From NCBI GenBank assembly GCA_004298675.1, contig SCRI01000079.1, positions 1 to 40,966 on the forward strand: 40,966 nt of DNA. The letters run 5' to 3'. The translations under genes and the position numbers were made by a program. Position 1 is the stretch's first letter. Each line of letters opens with the position of its first letter. The notes beneath the pieces were generated by a model. It had not been told where the DNA came from. It worked only from the letters and a program-made list of their open reading frames with translations, and ran no database searches. Shown here in pieces: positions 192 through 23,990 of this stretch. The stretch comes from a bacterium. GTDB taxonomy: Bacteria > Vulcanimicrobiota > Vulcanimicrobiia > Vulcanimicrobiales > SCRA01.

Positions 192-221
192 AGTATACGA
201 CGCGGCATCATGCCAAGTCAA
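192..221 (-). promoter_or_regulatory. strong sigma70-type promoter, probably of an rRNA operon
   Basis: On the minus strand, TTGACT (216-221) and TATACT (192-197) are separated by 18 bp. The TGA inside the -35 box is also the stop codon of trpA, so the promoter starts exactly where the trp operon ends. Transcription would start near 185 and run off the left edge through a boxB/boxA-like leader. The rpsL promoter (29591-29620) has the same design. Confidence 0.7.
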
Positions 222-1015
222 GCCTTGTGCGATGCGATTTTTAGCGACGAGACAAACGCGCGCGCCGCGCGCCCGGCAGCCTCACCGCGACGTTCGCCAA
301 GCGCATCGATCAGCGCGCTGCCGATGATCACGCCATCCGCGACGCCTCCGATCGCTTCTACCTGCTCCGCCTTAGAGATGCCGAAACCCACGGCGAGCGG
401 CAGCTCGGTCAGAGGGCGCAAACGGCCGATCTGTGCGATCACCGGCTCGAGATCGAGTCCGCCGGCTCCGGTGACACCCGCCCTCGACACCACGTACAGA
501 AACCCGTCAGACGCCGCCGCGATACGTCTAGACCGCTCGTTGGAGGTCGTGGGCGCCACCAACTGCGTGAGGCCCAAACCGCGGGCTCGCAGCTCCTCAC
601 GCAGCCCGGCACACTCTTCGAATGGGAGATCCGGCACGATGGCACCGAGCGCCCCGGTCGCGGCCAACCGCTCGGCGAAACGGGCGTGGCCGTAGCGCTC
701 GATCGGGTTGGCATAGCCGAACGCGATCAACGGCGGCCCGCCGGCCGCTGCCAAGCGGTCGAAAAGCGACAGCACGCCTGCGAAGGTCGCCCCGCCGGCC
801 AGGGCCCGCTGCGCCGCCGCCTGGATCGTCGGGCCGTCGGCGAGCGGATCGCTGTACGGTATGCCCAGCTCCACGGCATCGGCCCCGGCCTCCGCCAGCG
901 CCAATACGACCGCCACCGTCGTCTCCGGATCGGGATCTCCCGCCATGACGTAGGGGATGAGCGCCGGGCGCCCCTCGCGCCGCGCCCGCGCAAACAACGC
1001 TTCGTATCCCCCCAT
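218..1015 (-). CDS. trpA: tryptophan synthase alpha subunit
   Basis: This subunit cleaves indole-3-glycerol phosphate to indole and glyceraldehyde 3-phosphate and passes indole to TrpB. The 265-residue TIM barrel has the usual length. The family signature around VELGIPYSDPLADGP places the catalytic Glu at residue 49 and Asp at residue 60, the same numbering as the enteric enzyme. A later SRAGVTGA segment matches the conserved loop 6 region. The ATG overlaps the trpB stop (ATGA), indicating translational coupling. It is the last gene of the trp operon, and its stop codon lies inside the -35 box of the next promoter. Confidence 0.97.
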   Translation of the reverse strand: MGGYEALFARARREGRPALIPYVMAGDPDPETTVAVVLALAEAGADAVELGIPYSDPLADGPTIQAAAQRALAGGATFAGVLSLFDRLAAAGGPPLIAFGYANPIERYGHARFAERLAATGALGAIVPDLPFEECAGLREELRARGLGLTQLVAPTTSNERSRRIAAASDGFLYVVSRAGVTGAGGLDLEPVIAQIGRLRPLTELPLAVGFGISKAEQVEAIGGVADGVIIGSALIDALGERRGEAAGRAARAFVSSLKIASHKA

Positions 1016-2205
1016 CAGAGTCGGACCCCCTCGAGCGCCGCCACCTGCATCACGTCCTTGTCGCCGCGCCCGGAAAGCGAGACGACGATGACCCGCTGCG
1101 GCGGCCCCTCGCTGGCCAGGCGCATGGCATAGGCCACGGCATGGGCGCTCTCGAGCGCCGGCACGATGCCCTCCAAGTGGGCCAAGAGATGGAAGGCCTC
1201 CAACGCCTCGCCGTCCTCAATGCCGGCGTACGTCGCCCGCCCGGTATCGTGCAGATACGCGTGCTCGGGCCCGACGCCGGGGTAGTCCAAGCCGGCCGAA
1301 ATCGAGTGGGTCTCGCGGACCTGCCCCTCCTCGGTCTGCAACAGATAGGAGCGCGAACCGTGAAGCAGCCCCACGCTGCCCGCTCCCAGGGAGGCGGCGT
1401 GCTCGCCGCCCGCGAGCCCCCGGCCGGCCGCTTCCACGCCCCAGAGCCGGACACCGGCGTCGTCGACGAAGGCGGTGAAGATGCCCATCGCATTGCTTCC
1501 GCCGCCGACGCAGGCCACGACGTCGTCGGGCAGACGGCCCAGCCGCTCCAGCGACTGCGCGCGCGCCTCGTCTCCGATCACACGCTGAAACTCCCGCACC
1601 ATGTACGGATAGGGGTGCGCCCCGACCACGCTCCCGATGACGTAAAACGTGTTGTCCGAGCAGGCGGCCCAGACGCGGAACGCCTCGTTCGTGGCGTCCT
1701 TCAACGTCTGCGTACCGCTGGAAACCGGGTGCACCGTCGCCCCTAGCAGACGCATCAGATAGACGTTGAGTGCCTGGCGCTCGACGTCTTTTGCCCCCAT
1801 GTAGACGTCGACGGGCAGCCCGAGCTTCGCCCCGATCGTCGCGGTGGCCACGCCGTGTTGCCCTGCCCCGGTTTCCGCGATCAGACGCCGTGCCCCCATG
1901 CGCTTGGCCAACAGGCCCTGACCCACCGTGTTGTTGATTTTATGGGCGCCGGTATGGTTGGTGTCCTCGCGCTTGAGGAAGATGCGCGCGCCGCGGCAGT
2001 GCTCGCTCAGGCGTCGCGCCTCGTAGAGCGGCGACGGACGGCCGACATACTCCGCCAACAGCGAACGGTACTCGTGCCAAAAGAGCGGATCGGCGAAGGC
2101 CTCGCCCATCGCTTGCTCTAAACGCTCCAGCGCTCCGTGGAGCACTTCGGGAACGTACCTGCCGCCGAAGCGGCCGAAATACCCTCGTTCGTCAGGCTGC
2201 TGCAT
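1015..2205 (-). CDS. trpB: tryptophan synthase beta subunit
   Basis: The PLP-dependent beta subunit condenses indole with serine. The 396-residue form starts at the ATG at 2205, preceded by GGGAG at a suitable distance; a longer in-frame start at 2223 adds six residues and has no such site. Family motifs are intact: [13 protein letters not shown] at the N-terminus, the PLP lysine in TGAHKINN (Lys89), and the phosphate-binding GGGSNAMG. It is a canonical TrpB1, not the stand-alone TrpB2 type, as expected beside trpA. The start overlaps the trpF end by 14 nt. Confidence 0.97.
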
Positions 2206-2806
2206 CGCTCTCCCTAACCGCACGCACGAACGCGCGCATCAACTCACGGTCCTTCCGTCCGTCGCGTTCAACGCCGCTGGAGACGTCAACGGCGAACGGG
2301 CGCAGCAGGCGAATCGCCTCGCCCACGTTCTCGACGCACAAGCCCCCGGCCAGGCAGAACGGACCTAGCCCGCGCAGCGGTTCGATGGACGCCCATGCGA
2401 ACGTGCGTCCCATGCCTCCGCCGCGCGCGCTGGAGGCGTCGTACATGATCGTCCCCGCACCATAGCGGCGCACGTCGCCGGGATCCGGAGCCCGCTCGCC
2501 GACGTGGAGCACCTTCACAAACGCGCGCCCAAACGAGGCGCAGAACTGCGGCGACTCGGCGCCGCTGAACTGCAGGACGTCGACGCCGGCCTCGATGGCT
2601 GCACGCACGTCCTGCGCACCGGGGTCGACGAAGACGCCCACCAGCGGCACGAGCGCCGGGAATGACTGCCGTATCACCGCGACCTCGGCAAGCGACACGC
2701 GCCGCGGAGACGGGGCTAGAATCACGCCTAATGCATCCGCGCCCGCCTGCACCGCGTCATGCGCATCCTGCGGCGTGCGCATGCCGCAGATCTTCACGCG
2801 CGTCAT
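2192..2806 (-). CDS. trpF: phosphoribosylanthranilate isomerase
   Basis: TrpF catalyses the Amadori rearrangement of phosphoribosylanthranilate to CdRP. The 204-residue protein begins [10 protein letters not shown], the family's N-terminal signature, with the catalytic Cys in KICG. Further conserved segments are GVFVDP, LAGGL and DVSSGVE near the C-terminus, which contributes the phosphate site. The frame is open upstream to 3757, but that extension lies antisense-like over trpC and has no family similarity. The ATG overlaps the trpC stop (ATGA). Confidence 0.95.
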
Positions 2807-3603
2807 CGCAGCGATCCGACGCCGCGTAACTCTCGCAACATCGCACCAGGGTCGGCACTGCGCATCAAAGACTCGCCGACCAGGAAGGCCTGGGCACCCG
2901 CTCGCCGCAGCCGGCGCACCTGCTCCCCGTTGTGTAAGCCGCTCTCGCTGACCACCAGCACGCCGGGTGGAATCTCCGATAGCAACTCCGTGGTCGTGGA
3001 GAGATCGACGTCGAACGTGCGCAGGTTGCGGTTGTTGATGCCGACGATACGTGCACCCGCACGCAGGGCGCGACTCAACTCGCCTGCGCCGTGTACCTCC
3101 ACCAATGCATCGAGCGCATAGCGGGCGGCTTCTTGGATCAGCGCCGTGAGGCGCTCGTCGTCCAGCGCGGCCACGATCAGCAGGACCGCGTCGGCGCCAT
3201 AGGCCGAGGACTGCGCAATCTGGTAGGCGTCGGTGAGAAAGTCTTTGCGCAGAATCGGGCGCTCCGAGTTGGCGCGCGCCACATCGAGAAAGCTCAGTTC
3301 CCCCAGGAAGTGATCGCTCTCCGTCAGCACGCTGATGGCGTCGGCGCCGGCGCATTCGTAGGATGCGGCGATGCGCGCGGGATCGAAATCCTGTACGATC
3401 AGGCCCAGCGAGGGCGAGGCACGCTTGATCTCCGCGATGATCGCCGGCTCTTCGCCGCGCGCGCACAAAGCCTGCCCGAAGCCGCGGCGCTGCGCCGCGC
3501 GCGCGAGGCCGCGCTCGTGCAGTCGCTCCCACGGCTGCGCCGCGCGCTCGAGCTCGAGCACCTTCGCCTTCGCGTCCAGCAGCCGCTGCAGAATGTCGTT
3601 CAC
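2803..3603 (-). CDS. trpC: indole-3-glycerol-phosphate synthase
   Basis: TrpC closes the indole ring, converting CdRP to indole-3-glycerol phosphate. The 266-residue protein carries the expected barrel motifs in order: IAEIKRASPS (catalytic Lys), VLTESDHFLG, PILRKDF (catalytic Lys), VEVH, GINNRNL, VSESGL and FLVGESLM. I place the start at the GTG at 3603, which overlaps the trpD stop (GTGA) and has AAGGAGG 5-6 nt upstream; the frame is open to 3636. TrpC and TrpF are separate polypeptides here, not the fused enteric form. Confidence 0.95.
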   Translation of the reverse strand: MNDILQRLLDAKAKVLELERAAQPWERLHERGLARAAQRRGFGQALCARGEEPAIIAEIKRASPSLGLIVQDFDPARIAASYECAGADAISVLTESDHFLGELSFLDVARANSERPILRKDFLTDAYQIAQSSAYGADAVLLIVAALDDERLTALIQEAARYALDALVEVHGAGELSRALRAGARIVGINNRNLRTFDVDLSTTTELLSEIPPGVLVVSESGLHNGEQVRRLRRAGAQAFLVGESLMRSADPGAMLRELRGVGSLR

Positions 3604-4646
3604 CGGGCCTCCTTGGCACCGTGCGCCGGCTCGCACTCCGCGCGCGCCCGGCGCATCGCCTCGAGCGTAGCCAGCGCGCGCCCTTCGAGGATACTGCGCC
3701 GCGCCAGCGCCAGACCCTCGCGCACGTCTTCGGCCGCCCCCGCGACGTACAGCGCAAGCGCCGCGTTCAGGGCCACGACGTCCGCGCGCGGGCTGCGCTC
3801 GCCGGCCAAGATCGACTCCAGCGCGCGCGCGTTCTCGGCGGCCTCACCGCCGCGCAGCTCGGAGAGTTCCGCGCGCACTCCGTAGTCGGCGGGGTCCAAC
3901 CGCCCCGTCTCGACGCGCCCGTCGCGCACCATCGTCACGAGCGCCGGTGCCGCCCCCGAGAGCTCGTCGACGCCATCCAGGGAATGGATCACGGCGGCGC
4001 GTTCGCAGCCCAATCCCAGCAGCGCGTTGGCCACTAAGGGCACGAGCGGCTCACGCGCCACGCCTACCACTTGCCGGTTTGCCCCGGCCGGATTGGTCAG
4101 CGGGCCGAGCACGTTGAAGATGGTGGGCACGCCCAGGTCGCGCCGCAGCGGCGCGACGTTCTTGAACGCAGGATGGTAACGCTGCGCGAAGAGAAAGGCG
4201 ATGCAGTCTTCGCGTAGCCGGCGTGCAGCCTCCTGTGGACCCACCGAGATCTCCACACCTAACGCCTCCAGCACGTCGGCGCTGCCGCACTTACTCGACG
4301 CAGCGCGGTTCCCGTGCTTGGCAACGGGAACACCGGCGCCGGCTACCACCATCGACGCGGCGGTGGAGATGTTGATCGTATGCGCGCCGTCGCCCCCGGT
4401 GCCCACGATATCGAGAACCAACGGGAGCTCGTGCTCGACGCGCAATGCGCGCTCGCGCATGGCACGCGCCGCACCCACGACCTCGTCGGCCGTCTCGCCT
4501 TTCACGGCCATCGCCACCAGCAAGCCGGCCACGCGCGTGGGCGGCTCCTCGCCGTCCATCAAACGCCCGATGGCTAAGGCAACCTCGTTGGCACTCAGGT
4601 CCTCGCCGCGCATCACGCGCCGCAGCAGCTCGACGATCTCACTCAC
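3600..4646 (-). CDS. trpD: anthranilate phosphoribosyltransferase
   Basis: TrpD transfers phosphoribose from PRPP to anthranilate. From the GTG at 4646 the protein is 348 residues, the usual length. It shows the N-terminal helical region (EIVELLRRVMRGEDLS), the PRPP-binding DIVGTGGDG loop, the NISTAAS segment and the KHGNRAASSKCGSADVLEALG block. The frame is open upstream to 5003, but the extra sequence lies over trpG and is not family-like. The start overlaps the trpG stop (GTGA). TrpD is not fused to TrpG. Confidence 0.96.
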   Translation of the reverse strand: MSEIVELLRRVMRGEDLSANEVALAIGRLMDGEEPPTRVAGLLVAMAVKGETADEVVGAARAMRERALRVEHELPLVLDIVGTGGDGAHTINISTAASMVVAGAGVPVAKHGNRAASSKCGSADVLEALGVEISVGPQEAARRLREDCIAFLFAQRYHPAFKNVAPLRRDLGVPTIFNVLGPLTNPAGANRQVVGVAREPLVPLVANALLGLGCERAAVIHSLDGVDELSGAAPALVTMVRDGRVETGRLDPADYGVRAELSELRGGEAAENARALESILAGERSPRADVVALNAALALYVAGAAEDVREGLALARRSILEGRALATLEAMRRARAECEPAHGAKEAR

Positions 4647-5251
4647 GTTACCGTGCTCCGTTGCTTGGTCCGTACGACCTCCAGAAAGTTTGCGAAGATG
4701 CGACCGCCCACGTCCGTCAGCACCGACTCCGGGTGAAACTGCACGCCGTACAGCGGTAGCTGCGCGTGCTGGAGTCCCTGTACCACGCCGTCCTCGCTCC
4801 ATGCCACCGCGCGCAACGGCTCGCGCAGGCTGCGCTCCTCCACGGCCAGCGAGTGGTAGCGCGTGGCGGCGAAGTTCTGCTCGACGCCCTCGAAGAGCCG
4901 CCCGTGCTCGTGACGAATGAGCGAAGTCTTGCCGTGCAGCAGTGCCGGGGCGTATCCCACCCGCGCGCCGAACGCTTGCGCCAGCGCCTGGTGCCCTAGG
5001 CAAACGCCGAAGAGCGCGCGGCGCGCCTCAGCCGCCGCCACGATCAGGGCCACGCTGATACCTGCATCCTCCGGGCGCCCCGGCCCCGGCCCGACCACGA
5101 TGCCGTCGTCGCCGCGCGCCAGCGCCTCCGGCACCGTCAGCGCATCGGCTCGCACGACCTCAACGGCGGCGTCGGCGGCGGCCAGCGCATGCGCGATGTT
5201 GTACGTGAACGAGTCATAGTTGTCCAGGAGCAGAATCCGCGGCGTCACCAT
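4643..5251 (-). CDS. trpG: anthranilate synthase glutamine amidotransferase component
   Basis: This class I glutamine amidotransferase supplies ammonia to TrpE. The 202-residue protein begins near ILLLDNYDSFTYN. It has the oxyanion motif VGPGPGRPEDAG, the nucleophile elbow GVCLGHQA (catalytic Cys) and VQFHPESVLT (catalytic His and Glu). Either the ATG at 5251 or the GTG at 5248 could start it; both overlap or abut the trpE stop at 5245-5247. Such subunits often also serve 4-amino-4-deoxychorismate synthase, and no separate pabA is visible here. Confidence 0.95.
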   Translation of the reverse strand: MVTPRILLLDNYDSFTYNIAHALAAADAAVEVVRADALTVPEALARGDDGIVVGPGPGRPEDAGISVALIVAAAEARRALFGVCLGHQALAQAFGARVGYAPALLHGKTSLIRHEHGRLFEGVEQNFAATRYHSLAVEERSLREPLRAVAWSEDGVVQGLQHAQLPLYGVQFHPESVLTDVGGRIFANFLEVVRTKQRSTVT

Positions 5252-6678
5252 GGCTGAATCCCTAGAGTCTCGGCAATGATGCGCGTCTTGTGATGCACCT
5301 CGGCATACTCCGACTCCGGATCGGAGTCCGCGACGATACCGGCTGCCGCCTGAAAGTAGACGCGGCCGTCCCGCACGTGCGCGCTGCGCAGCGTGATGCA
5401 AGAATCCATGTCACCGTTGAAATCGAAGTGCGCCACGCTGCCCGCGTAGAAGCCGCGCGTTAGCGGCTCGAGCTGGTTGATGATCTGCATGGCGCGAATC
5501 TTGGGTGTTCCCGTCACGGTGCCGGCCGGATAGGCTGCTGCGAAGAGATCGACGGCATCGCAACCCTCCCGCAGCTCGCCCTCGACGTCGGAGACGATGT
5601 GCATGACGTGACTATACTTCTCGATCGTCATCAATTCATTGACGTGCACGCTGCCGAAGCGGCAGACGCGGCCGAGATCGTTGCGCGCGAGGTCCACGAG
5701 CATGACGTGCTCGGCGCGCTCCTTGGGATCCGCCAAGAGCTCGCGCATCACGCGCGCCTCGATCGCCGGATCCGGATGACGGGGGCGCGTTCCCGCCAGC
5801 GGCCGCAGGCGTGCCGTCGAGCCGTCGAGGCGCACGAGGAATTCGGGCGAAGCGCCGAGCACCGCGCCGTAGGGCGTATCCAAGAAGAACATGTACGGCG
5901 AGGGGTTCTGCGCGCGTACGCGGCGGTAGAGGTCGAAGGGTTCGCCGCGAACCTCAACACCGAAGCGAATCGAGAGCTGCAGCTGGTAGACGTCGCCTTC
6001 GTAGATGGCGCGCTTGGCCCGTGCCACGCCGTCGAGAAATGCCGCGTGCTCCAGCGAGCGCTGTGGCGGACCGGCCGCGGCGAAGATGCCCGGAAGCGAC
6101 GGGCGCGTCCAGAGCAAGCGGCGCTCGTACTCGGCCAGGCGCGCCTCCACGGCCGCCCGTTCCGCGTCGTCGCGTGAGAAGCCCAGCAGCGTGAGGGTGT
6201 GACGGAAATGGTCGAAGACCAGCCACGTGCCGGGCACGACGGCGTAGATCTGTGGCAACTCCGCGTCGGCGGGGAGCGCCTGGCCGACGCGCTCGAGGGC
6301 GCGCACGAGATCGTAGCTGCACAACGCCACGACGCCGCCGGCAAATGCCAGTTGGTCGCGTCCCGCCACCGTGAAGTTGCCGATCAGGCGGCGCAGCTCA
6401 CCCAGCGTCGAAGCGGCGTCGGCACCATCGATCGCTACGGCCGCCAGATAGTCCAAGCCCAGGAAACTGTAGCGGGAGATGCGCTCCGTGCCCTCGACCG
6501 ACTCCAGCAAACACGCACGCCCCGGCTCGGCCAGGGCGTGAAACGCGGAGATCGGGGTGATGGCATCGGCCACGAATGCGCGCGCTGAGGCGCGCAAAAC
6601 CACAGGACCTCGCCGGTCCTCCTTCACGCAACGGTTGGCGCTGACGAAGTCATTGCGCCGGACGTCCGCTGCCCCCAC
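5245..6678 (-). CDS. trpE: anthranilate synthase component I
   Basis: TrpE converts chorismate plus ammonia to anthranilate. The protein is 477 residues from a GTG start 6 bp after rplQ. The chorismate-binding domain is clear in the C-terminal half: PSPYMFFLDT, GASPEFLVRL, RPLAGTRPR, AAYPAGTVTGTPK and the DMDSCITLRS region. The N-terminal half contains LLESVEG, matching the tryptophan feedback motif LLES of TrpE, which favours TrpE over PabB. The upstream gap holds no leader peptide or attenuator, so trp expression appears tied to the alpha operon transcript. The exact start is uncertain. Confidence 0.93.
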   Translation of the reverse strand: MGAADVRRNDFVSANRCVKEDRRGPVVLRASARAFVADAITPISAFHALAEPGRACLLESVEGTERISRYSFLGLDYLAAVAIDGADAASTLGELRRLIGNFTVAGRDQLAFAGGVVALCSYDLVRALERVGQALPADAELPQIYAVVPGTWLVFDHFRHTLTLLGFSRDDAERAAVEARLAEYERRLLWTRPSLPGIFAAAGPPQRSLEHAAFLDGVARAKRAIYEGDVYQLQLSIRFGVEVRGEPFDLYRRVRAQNPSPYMFFLDTPYGAVLGASPEFLVRLDGSTARLRPLAGTRPRHPDPAIEARVMRELLADPKERAEHVMLVDLARNDLGRVCRFGSVHVNELMTIEKYSHVMHIVSDVEGELREGCDAVDLFAAAYPAGTVTGTPKIRAMQIINQLEPLTRGFYAGSVAHFDFNGDMDSCITLRSAHVRDGRVYFQAAAGIVADSDPESEYAEVHHKTRIIAETLGIQPW

Positions 6679-21310: not shown

Positions 21311-21940
21311 TTAGGACCCCTTCACCTTGACCGACTGCTGGATGACGACCAGCGCGTTCTTCGCGCCGGGAACCGGGCCGCGCAGCAGCAGCAAGTTGCG
21401 CTCGGCGTCGGCACGGACGACCTCGAGATTCTGATGGGTCACGCGGTCGACGCCGTAGTGACCGGGACGGCGGCTGCCCTTGGTGGTGCGGCCGGCGTTG
21501 GTATCGCCGTTCGAGGCCGGCTGACGATGGATCATCGAACCGTGGCTCGCTCCGCCGCCGCTGAAGTTATGGCGCTTGATGCCGCCGGCGAAGCCATGAC
21601 CTTTCGAAACGCCTACGACGTCGACACGATCGCCGGCGACAAAGTCGGAAACGGTGATCGTCTGCCCGGCCTCCACGCCGTCGATGCCCTTGCGGAACTC
21701 GCGCAGGAAGCGCTTCGGGGCCGCGCCGGTCTTCTTGAAATGACCGAGCATCGGCTTGGTCGCGCGCTTCGCGTTCGCGTCGCCGAAGGCAAGCTGCACC
21801 GCTTCATAACCATCGGAGTCAGCGGTCTTGCGCTGCGTCACCACGCAGGGCCCCGCCTCCACGACGGTCACCGGTACGAACCGTCCGTCGTCCAGGAAGA
21901 CGCTCGTCATCCCGACCTTGCGGCCGATGATGTTCTTCAC
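21311..21940 (-). CDS. rplC: 50S ribosomal protein L3
   Basis: The 209-residue L3 begins KNIIGRKVGMTSVFLDDGR after a GTG start and has the central extension GKGHGFAGGIKRHNFSGG with GASHGSMIHRQPASNG, which reaches toward the peptidyl transferase centre. AAAGGA lies 9 nt upstream. It is the first gene after its own promoter and hairpin-rich leader, and is separated from rpsJ by three non-ribosomal genes. Confidence 0.97.
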   Translation of the reverse strand: MKNIIGRKVGMTSVFLDDGRFVPVTVVEAGPCVVTQRKTADSDGYEAVQLAFGDANAKRATKPMLGHFKKTGAAPKRFLREFRKGIDGVEAGQTITVSDFVAGDRVDVVGVSKGHGFAGGIKRHNFSGGGASHGSMIHRQPASNGDTNAGRTTKGSRRPGHYGVDRVTHQNLEVVRADAERNLLLLRGPVPGAKNALVVIQQSVKVKGS

Positions 21941-22138: not shown

Positions 22139-22756
22139 TCAATGCCCGTGCAGTTGCTCCAGCACCGCGACGAGCTGCTCGGGCTCTTGCATCCCGGCGA
22201 CGGCGCGCCCCCCCGGCCAGCCGAACGCCGGCACGCCGGTGACGCCGGCGTCGATACCCGCTTGAAACGCCGCGTCCACGGCCTCGCGGTAGCGCCGCTC
22301 GCGCCACGCTTCCTCGACGTCGCCCGGCGCGATGCCAAACGGCGCGGCCAACTCCGCCACGACGGCCGGATCGCTGATGTCGCGCCCCTCGGCGAAATAG
22401 GCTCGCGAGGCGGCGTGGTGAAAGCGCCCCGCGGCGGCGTCTCCGCCGCGTTCGCGCACCAGCTCACCGGTCTCCAGCGCCAGCCGCGAGTTGAGGTTGC
22501 GCTGCGGCGGATCCATCGGCAGCCCCACCATCCCGGCGAAACGCAGCAGGCGCGCGCGAATCTCCGGCCATTCGCGGGGCGAGAAGGGCTTGGGTGCGCC
22601 GCCGGGCGGCGTCTCCGGATGCAGCTCGAACGGCAGCCAGCGCAGGCGCGCCCCCAGGCGCCGCGCCGCCTCTTCGGCCCAGACCGAGCCGAGATAGCAG
22701 TAGGGTCAGATGACGTCGCTCCAGACGTCGATCACCAGCGGTGGCGAGCTCTCCAT
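22139..22756 (-). CDS. DsbA/FrnE-family thiol-disulfide oxidoreductase, candidate selenoprotein (UPYC active site)
   Basis: The gene starts at an ATG 4 nt after the LarA-like gene, with a strong GGAGGAGGT site overlapping that gene's stop. Codons 1-16 encode a family-like first strand (VIDVWSDVI). Codon 17 (22706-22708) is TGA, exactly where DsbA/FrnE proteins carry the first cysteine of C-P-W/Y-C; PYCYLGSVWAEE follows directly (Cys20), then PFELHPETPPGG and a complete helical and C-terminal domain (VTGVPAFGWPGG, with the cis-Pro loop). Read through, the protein is 205 residues, normal for the family, with no other internal stop. A bacterial-SECIS-like hairpin lies just downstream. Predicted to be cytosolic, as no signal peptide is seen. 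Alternatives are a nonsense mutation or sequencing error. Confidence 0.75.
22671..22694 (-). promoter_or_regulatory. candidate bacterial SECIS element downstream of the in-frame TGA
   Basis: The hairpin stem runs UCUCGGCUC against GGGCCGA-(A)-GA, nine pairs with one bulged A, closed by the loop GGUCU (22681-22685). The loop begins 20 nt after the UGA, inside the window known for bacterial SECIS elements, and its first two bases are G. An alternative pairing bulges a U just below the apex, as in E. coli fdhF, whose loop (as I recall it) is also GGUCU at 18 nt after UGA. The match was judged by eye, without folding software. Confidence 0.65.
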
Positions 22757-22760
22757 TGCG

Positions 22761-23990
22761 CTACCTCCTCCATACCGTCAACAGCGCGCCGCCGCCATCG
22801 TATGCAAGGGGACTGGGTTGCGTCACGATTTCCAGACGCGGATCCGCCGCCACCGCCGGCAGCAAGGCGGGGCTCACGTGGAGGTATTCCAGGTCCGCGG
22901 TGTTGCGAATGTGGGCGATGCGTGCGGCGCCGGCGTCGAAGGGCTTACACGCTAGGGCGACGGCCTCACGTGCCGTGGGCAGCGTCAACGGGATCTTGGC
23001 GCCCGCGAGAAAACCGCTGGTCATCGCGTTCATGGCGGTCGCGCCTTCGTCGATCTTGGCGCGCAGCGTCCGCGAGATCACATCGGCCATGCCCACGCCC
23101 ACGGCGTTGCCGTGCGAGGCCGCGGTGAGATCAAGCGCGACGATGCGCTCGATGCGCCGGTCCACCGCGCCCCCGATACGCCGCCACATTCCGATGACGT
23201 TGGGATCCATGCCGGCACCGGAGATGTTCTTTCCGATCTCGTCGATGATCAGCACGTCGAGCGGATCGAAGGGAATGCCGGGCATGGCCGCGCGTGCGCG
23301 GGCCAAGAGCCTGCGATCGGCCTCCTCGAACTCCTCCGGCACCACGCCTTCGACCAGCGCCAGACGGTCGCGAGCGTTCTCCACCAGCGCGACGCCGAAA
23401 GCGATGGGCGCCCGCGTCAACACCCGCCGCGCCGCCGCCACCAAGTGCTCTTGCAGCCCTTTGGCGTGCAGCGCGTCGGCGCCGTGGCGTTTTCCCAAGC
23501 CGATGGCGCACATCTTCAGCAGACCACTGCCCAAGTCGCCGGTGAGGATGGAGTGGGGCTTGACGCGCCCGACCACGATGATCCCGTCCGACTCGAAGGC
23601 CTGGCGATCGCAGAAGACCTCGACGCCGCCCGTCGTAGCGCCCAACGCCACCACTTCCATCGAAGAGCGGATCTCGCAGCCGATTGCCTCTTCCGTGATA
23701 CCGTAGCCGCGCAGCACCTCGCGCTGCCCCTGATCCGTGGCGCCGCCGTGCGAGCCCATCGCGGCGGTGAGAAAAGGCTTGGCACCCAACGCCTTGACGG
23801 CGCCAACGACCGCGCGCAGCACGGGCACGATGGCGTCGATGCCGCGGCTGCCGGCGGTGATGGCGATCGACGCGCCAGGCGCGATACGTCTAGTGGCTCC
23901 GACGCTGGCAAAGGCAGCCTCGACCGCGGCAGCGGGATCGGCCACGGCCGTGACGTCGAAACGCTGGCGGATCAGCGCCCAGTCAGACAC
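22761..23990 (-). CDS. LarA-like (nickel-pincer lactate racemase family, DUF2088) protein
   Basis: The 409-residue protein resembles the LarA N-terminal family: [15 protein letters not shown] (His81) and VGRVKPHS (His146) are spaced like the two N-terminal nickel/cofactor histidines of lactate racemase, with Lys159 and His169 as further candidates. The true substrate is unknown, as most relatives are uncharacterised and not proven lactate racemases. No larB, larC or larE, needed to make the nickel-pincer cofactor, is in the window. The GTG start has no clear ribosome binding site. It lies 24 nt after the SRPBCC gene and 4 nt before the DsbA-like gene. Confidence 0.75.

Follow-up and report, generated by a model that had tools for sequence, protein, structure and literature searches.

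A predicted FrnE-type DsbA-like selenoprotein with a UPYC motif in Vulcanimicrobiota

DsbA-like selenoproteins have been known as a type since 2005, when nine proteins with a UxxC motif, assigned to COG2761, were reported from the Sargasso Sea (PMC1088965). Others have been described in genomes such as those of Anaeromyxobacter and Desulfotomaculum (PMC1794560) and in GOS data (PMC2398784), by 2016 the type had been recorded in 41 organisms (PMC5029168), and a 2026 review carries an entry 'DsbA-like protein form 1' (PMC13188914). An earlier, sequence-only reading of the present locus had likewise pointed to DsbA-like selenoproteins from metagenomes. Going by its COG name, we take COG2761 to be the FrnE group. 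FrnE of Deinococcus radiodurans is a cytoplasmic disulfide reductase/isomerase, and its mutant is sensitive to cadmium and diamide; the enzyme is regenerated via a C-terminal CxxxxC, which some accepted FrnE members do not have (PMC8945050).

Here we analyze a gene in a 40,966-nt contig of a Vulcanimicrobiota genome, referred to in its full length as the window. Compared by published descriptions, the gene resembles DsbA-like protein form 1 in its PF01323 domain, its COG2761 affiliation, the predicted selenocysteine (Sec) at the first position of a CxxC-type motif and the predicted SECIS element directly downstream, and differs in its host phylum and in belonging to a clade that has no Cys member in the genomes searched. 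Our sequence-based analysis indicates that the UGA at 22706-22708 is, with high probability, read as Sec to give a FrnE-type DsbA-fold selenoenzyme, as had been proposed. It represents a new branch, with good support, within a known selenoprotein type rather than a new kind of system.

Reading frame across the TGA

The gene starts with an ATG at 22756-22754, followed by 16 codons and the TGA at 22708-22706, after which the frame continues with PYCYLGSVW and remains open to a terminal TGA at 22141-22139. Read through the internal TGA, the protein matches the Pfam DSBA family (PF01323) with E = 2.7e-30 over residues 8-199. Inspection of the sequence agreed with the earlier reading on the ATG with its strong Shine-Dalgarno-like site, the 16 codons, PYCYLG, the open frame to 22139 and the TGA at exactly the first Cys of the CxxC pair in a DsbA/FrnE-like gene. 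NCBIfam offered no specific model for the Sec protein. The features of the gene are as follows.

22139..22756, minus strand: predicted selenoprotein gene, a FrnE-type DsbA oxidoreductase of 205 residues including Sec17 (from the reading frame, Pfam and the FrnE match by sequence and fold)
22706..22708, minus strand: in-frame TGA, predicted Sec17, opening the UPYC (CxxC-type) motif (the 15 other full-length relatives all have TGA here)
22697..22699, minus strand: TGC for Cys20, the putative resolving residue and sole Cys of the protein (from the sequence)
22763..22771, minus strand: Shine-Dalgarno-like GGAGGAGGT (from the sequence), overlapping the TAG stop (22763-22761) of the upstream gene

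TGA terminates 12 of the 44 tabulated genes in the window, as well as the selenoprotein gene itself. Because of these 12 genes, TGA is not reassigned in the host genome, and code reassignment was rejected. More broadly, the UGA might be read through with another amino acid, by a suppressor tRNA or a reassigned code, or translation might begin at an internal start and yield a protein without the active site; an ATG at 22531, downstream of the internal TGA, does open a 130-aa ORF. Both variants are very unlikely given the ordinary use of TGA as a stop, the conservation of the WSDV motif ahead of the internal TGA and the presence of machinery dedicated to Sec together with a hairpin that fits it, and the truncated product of an internal start would lose the first strand along with the active site. 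Translation as a Sec protein from the ATG at 22756 is the reading we retain.

Conservation of the codon and of a hairpin behind it

We searched 149 genomes of the phylum and found full-length matches in 14 (the host and 13 others), the relatives being 57-69% identical; all 14 have TGA at the Sec codon and none has Cys. A further match, in G091, is a fragment cut by a contig end. As a Cys version within the phylum, the only candidate was a distant CPWC FrnE-type protein of G088 with 32% identity, which we rejected as such. A scan of public species genomes with short peptide motifs, including one that had Cys in place of Sec, recovered 10 of the phylum relatives and at least two more sequences, L043 and L046, both with TGA; for relatives outside the phylum this number is a lower bound. 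The two come from metagenome-assembled genomes (MAGs) labelled Acidobacteria and Chthoniobacterales, and selB is present in both. Another MAG, labelled Rhodospirillales (L049; JANYGA010000237.1), carries a gene that matches that of G089 from this phylum. It is probably misnamed, and L043 and L046 could therefore be mislabelled too.

Altogether, TGA occupies the Sec codon in 16 of 16 Sec-type sequences, with Cys at this position in distant FrnE relatives, which is the pattern that a comparison of homologues at this codon had been suggested to look for. Internal stops other than the Sec TGA are absent from 15 of the 16. The exception is L043 (L043:5001-5567), in which a second in-frame TGA replaces Trp63, a residue conserved in all the others; this may be an error or the mark of a decaying copy, or may have some other cause. 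Downstream of the TGA, dN/dS ranges from 0.15 to 0.26 in six pairs, and the coding sequence 3' of the TGA is under purifying selection. The motif immediately ahead of the TGA, WSDV or WADV, is also conserved among relatives. With conservation on one side of the codon and selection on the other, the frame is therefore translated across the TGA.

These results bear on two simpler accounts of the codon. The sequence-only reading had held that homologues with other disruptions would indicate a pseudogene, in which the TGA is a nonsense mutation in an ordinary CPYC gene; apart from L043, no such homologue was found. The second stop in L043 and the patchy distribution, with 14 of 149 genomes positive, do fit a pseudogene, but every full-length relative has its TGA at exactly this codon, the other sequences contain no additional stop, dN/dS stays low after the TGA and the hairpin behind it is conserved. 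Conservation thus refutes this account, to which we assign only a very small probability. A sequencing or assembly error at a TGC or TGT codon would take just a single-base change, yet the same TGA recurs in MAGs assembled independently in different studies, and we rejected error as a practically negligible explanation.

The Sec reading of the codon also predicts a SECIS element nearby, and a search of 22640-22756 had been advised. A SECIS-type hairpin was found directly after the TGA, both in a consensus fold and in a systematic scan of TGA codons.

22674..22692, minus strand: predicted bacterial SECIS hairpin with a 7-bp upper stem (from the consensus fold, covariation, TGA scan and codon conservation)
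22685-22681, minus strand: GGUCU apical loop, 20 nt after the UGA (from the consensus fold)
22666..22700, minus strand: whole predicted SECIS including the lower stem (from the RNAalifold consensus)

The RNAalifold consensus of 14 sequences comprises the 7-bp upper stem, the GGUCU loop and a weaker 5-bp lower stem. One stem pair shows a compensatory change from C-G to U-A in L027, and at another pair half of the sequences have G-U in place of G-C. The folding energy of the single sequence is unremarkable by itself (-19.2 kcal/mol, z only about -1.1, not significant). Conservation at synonymous sites is higher within codons 18-28 than across the remainder of the gene (0.83 versus 0.68, p = 0.015). 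The TGA scan asked for GGUCU 14-33 nt after a TGA and a stem of at least 7 pairs; among 28,143 TGAs on both strands of all loci gathered to that point, which are partly redundant, it returned 28 matches, every one a copy of the selenoprotein gene or of fdhA and none elsewhere. All relatives have the hairpin except L029 (loop AGUUU) and L043, which gave no match in the GGUCU scan. Rfam at the gathering threshold had no match in the window. The hairpin of the host fdhA has the same GGUCU loop, 18 nt after its UGA as against 20 nt in the selenoprotein gene, and so does the SECIS of E. coli fdhF; the encoded protein is unrelated.

Selenocysteine decoding in the host and its phylum

The host genome measures 3.03 Mb in 87 contigs, with the window as contig C67, and is 98.5% complete. 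It contains selA (L009:9016-10392, contig C71), identified by its own sequence and by its place before the adjoining selB; selB itself, which scores over the cut-off with E = 5e-80; and a tRNA-Sec whose anticodon is UCA, which scores 71.7 bits where 47 is the threshold and which ARAGORN confirmed. The selD frame has a single TGA, within SSCAG-TGA-ASKVGSAD, which is the known Sec position of SelD. With selD, all four of the genes (selA, selB, selD and tRNA-Sec) that the earlier reading had named as a check on Sec decoding are present. A single TGA also lies in the formate dehydrogenase alpha chain, within ARI-TGA-HSSTVPGLG, the known Sec site of the family; this chain is the best match of its kind in the host genome, yet under the family cut-off. 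Counting the selenoprotein gene, the host genome thus has three or more frames of selenoprotein type that contain a TGA. The two outside the window are located as follows.

L121, about 1828, minus strand: in-frame TGA of the formate dehydrogenase alpha chain, a classical Sec site
L021, about 2390, minus strand: in-frame TGA of SelD, a classical Sec site

Across the phylum, selB exceeds the curated cut-off in 113 of 149 genomes. Three MAGs that carry the TGA gene, 83-91% complete, depart from this picture: neither selB nor a convincing tRNA-Sec was detected in G052 (91% complete) and G120 (83% complete), and no clear selB in G126. In the host, G076 and G125 only tens of kilobases separate selB from tRNA-Sec, so that one missing scaffold could explain the gap, and the three are probably incomplete bins.

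Fold, predicted action and family

The AlphaFold2 model is a confident DsbA fold (pLDDT 91.9) that retains the UxxC motif and has Sec17 where helix 1 begins; all relatives keep a GVP (cis-Pro-type) loop at 174-176. The top fold matches in the PDB are structures of D. radiodurans FrnE (5cp1/5cnw; TMq 0.81-0.84, E = 1.5e-13), followed by SCO1869 (3gl5) and then by HCCA isomerase 3fz5 and kappa GST, and a profile search agrees that D. radiodurans FrnE is the closest solved structure (5.5e-18). The Pfam match, the model and the best PDB match together identify a DsbA-like thioredoxin domain with a CxxC-type motif in helix 1, as in the FrnE subfamily of DsbA (PF01323, cd03024). In D. radiodurans FrnE (DR_0659) a CP(W/F)C active site occupies the position of UPYC. 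The structural alignment shows about 29% identity, and FrnE differs in using Cys in place of the predicted Sec and in having a C-terminal CxxxxC, which is absent here, Cys20 being the only Cys. SCO1869 of Streptomyces coelicolor likewise has a FrnE-type DsbA fold and differs as a Cys protein. No signal peptide was seen by inspection, so the Sec protein is probably cytoplasmic; the first strand of the model starts at residue 7. No other PF01323 protein was found in the host genome.

The neighboring genes are two.

22761..23990, minus strand: upstream neighbor, a LarA-like nickel-pincer-cofactor isomerase (group 22), separate from the selenoprotein (NCBIfam NF052515, E = 2.7e-139)
21311..21940, minus strand: downstream neighbor rplC (ribosomal protein L3), start of the ribosomal protein operon (from the ORF list)

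The gene had been described as linked to ribosomal proteins, which is correct at this locus and within the genus (the host and G029/L040) and does not extend beyond it. Because the setting is limited to the genus, the neighbors are uninformative on function, and no partner genes are conserved beside the Sec gene in the loci compared. Gene order differs even between two species of the genus: the host has an SRPBCC-type gene, the isomerase, the Sec gene and rplC in succession (22139-23990 for the Sec gene and isomerase), G029 has the Sec gene and then the isomerase between the SRPBCC-type gene and rplC (L040:2062-3868), and in G030 the isomerase is directly followed by rplC, without a Sec gene between them. 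Elsewhere in the window, genes identified by sequence as trpA, B, C, F, D, G and E (218-6678) immediately follow the ribosomal protein operon at its rpoA/rplQ end.

In the mechanism that we propose, SelB with Sec-tRNA(Sec) would bind the hairpin, whose GGUCU loop starts 20 nt after the UGA, and deliver Sec; the parts are present, and their action is predicted from them. This would yield a DsbA-fold oxidoreductase of FrnE type in which helix 1 opens with U17-P-Y-C20 and the conserved GVP loop lies at 174-176. Sec17 would serve as nucleophile against disulfides in substrates, or against other oxidized substrates, and Cys20 would resolve the mixed selenosulfide. Because the C-terminal CxxxxC of D. 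radiodurans FrnE is absent, an external thiol system would have to re-reduce the enzyme. By analogy with FrnE, the role is likely to be reduction or isomerization of disulfides under oxidative or metal stress. A Sec protein with a reaction other than disulfide exchange, such as glutathione chemistry like that of kappa GST or HCCA isomerase, or peroxide or metal handling, would fit the fold matches to 3fz5 and kappa GST and the lack of conserved partner genes; we consider it rather unlikely, given that FrnE disulfide oxidoreductases rank first in the sequence search as well as in the fold search and that the UxxC motif is kept.

The proposed UPYC selenoprotein is strongly supported by the Sec machinery, the conserved TGA, purifying selection and the SECIS-type hairpin. 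In a tree built from the 16 Sec sequences and from Cys FrnE proteins chosen by motif, the Sec sequences group together with full support (100/100); the branch leading to them is long (1.57), and the nearest Cys FrnE proteins are distant. The clade may tentatively be viewed as an obligately Sec-using FrnE subfamily without a Cys member, supplying the only DsbA-domain protein of the host; it could stem from its own Cys-to-Sec change or from a single old acquisition in Vulcanimicrobiota, with later loss or transfer scattering it within the phylum and perhaps carrying it to the MAGs labelled Acidobacteria and Verrucomicrobia. This is a plausible history, though one to which we give somewhat less than even weight.

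Among the papers searched, none usefully linked selenoproteins with this phylum (as Eremiobacterota or WPS-2), and FrnE together with selenoprotein gave only unrelated matches. While the picture of Sec decoding itself is unchanged, the gene adds a well-supported predicted selenoprotein to a phylum of uncultured soil and peat bacteria, where no earlier one was found reported, and it exemplifies a gene that automated annotation would truncate or lose. With Sec predicted in every member and no Cys form, it also offers a compact clade in which to ask why some FrnE-type enzymes need selenium.
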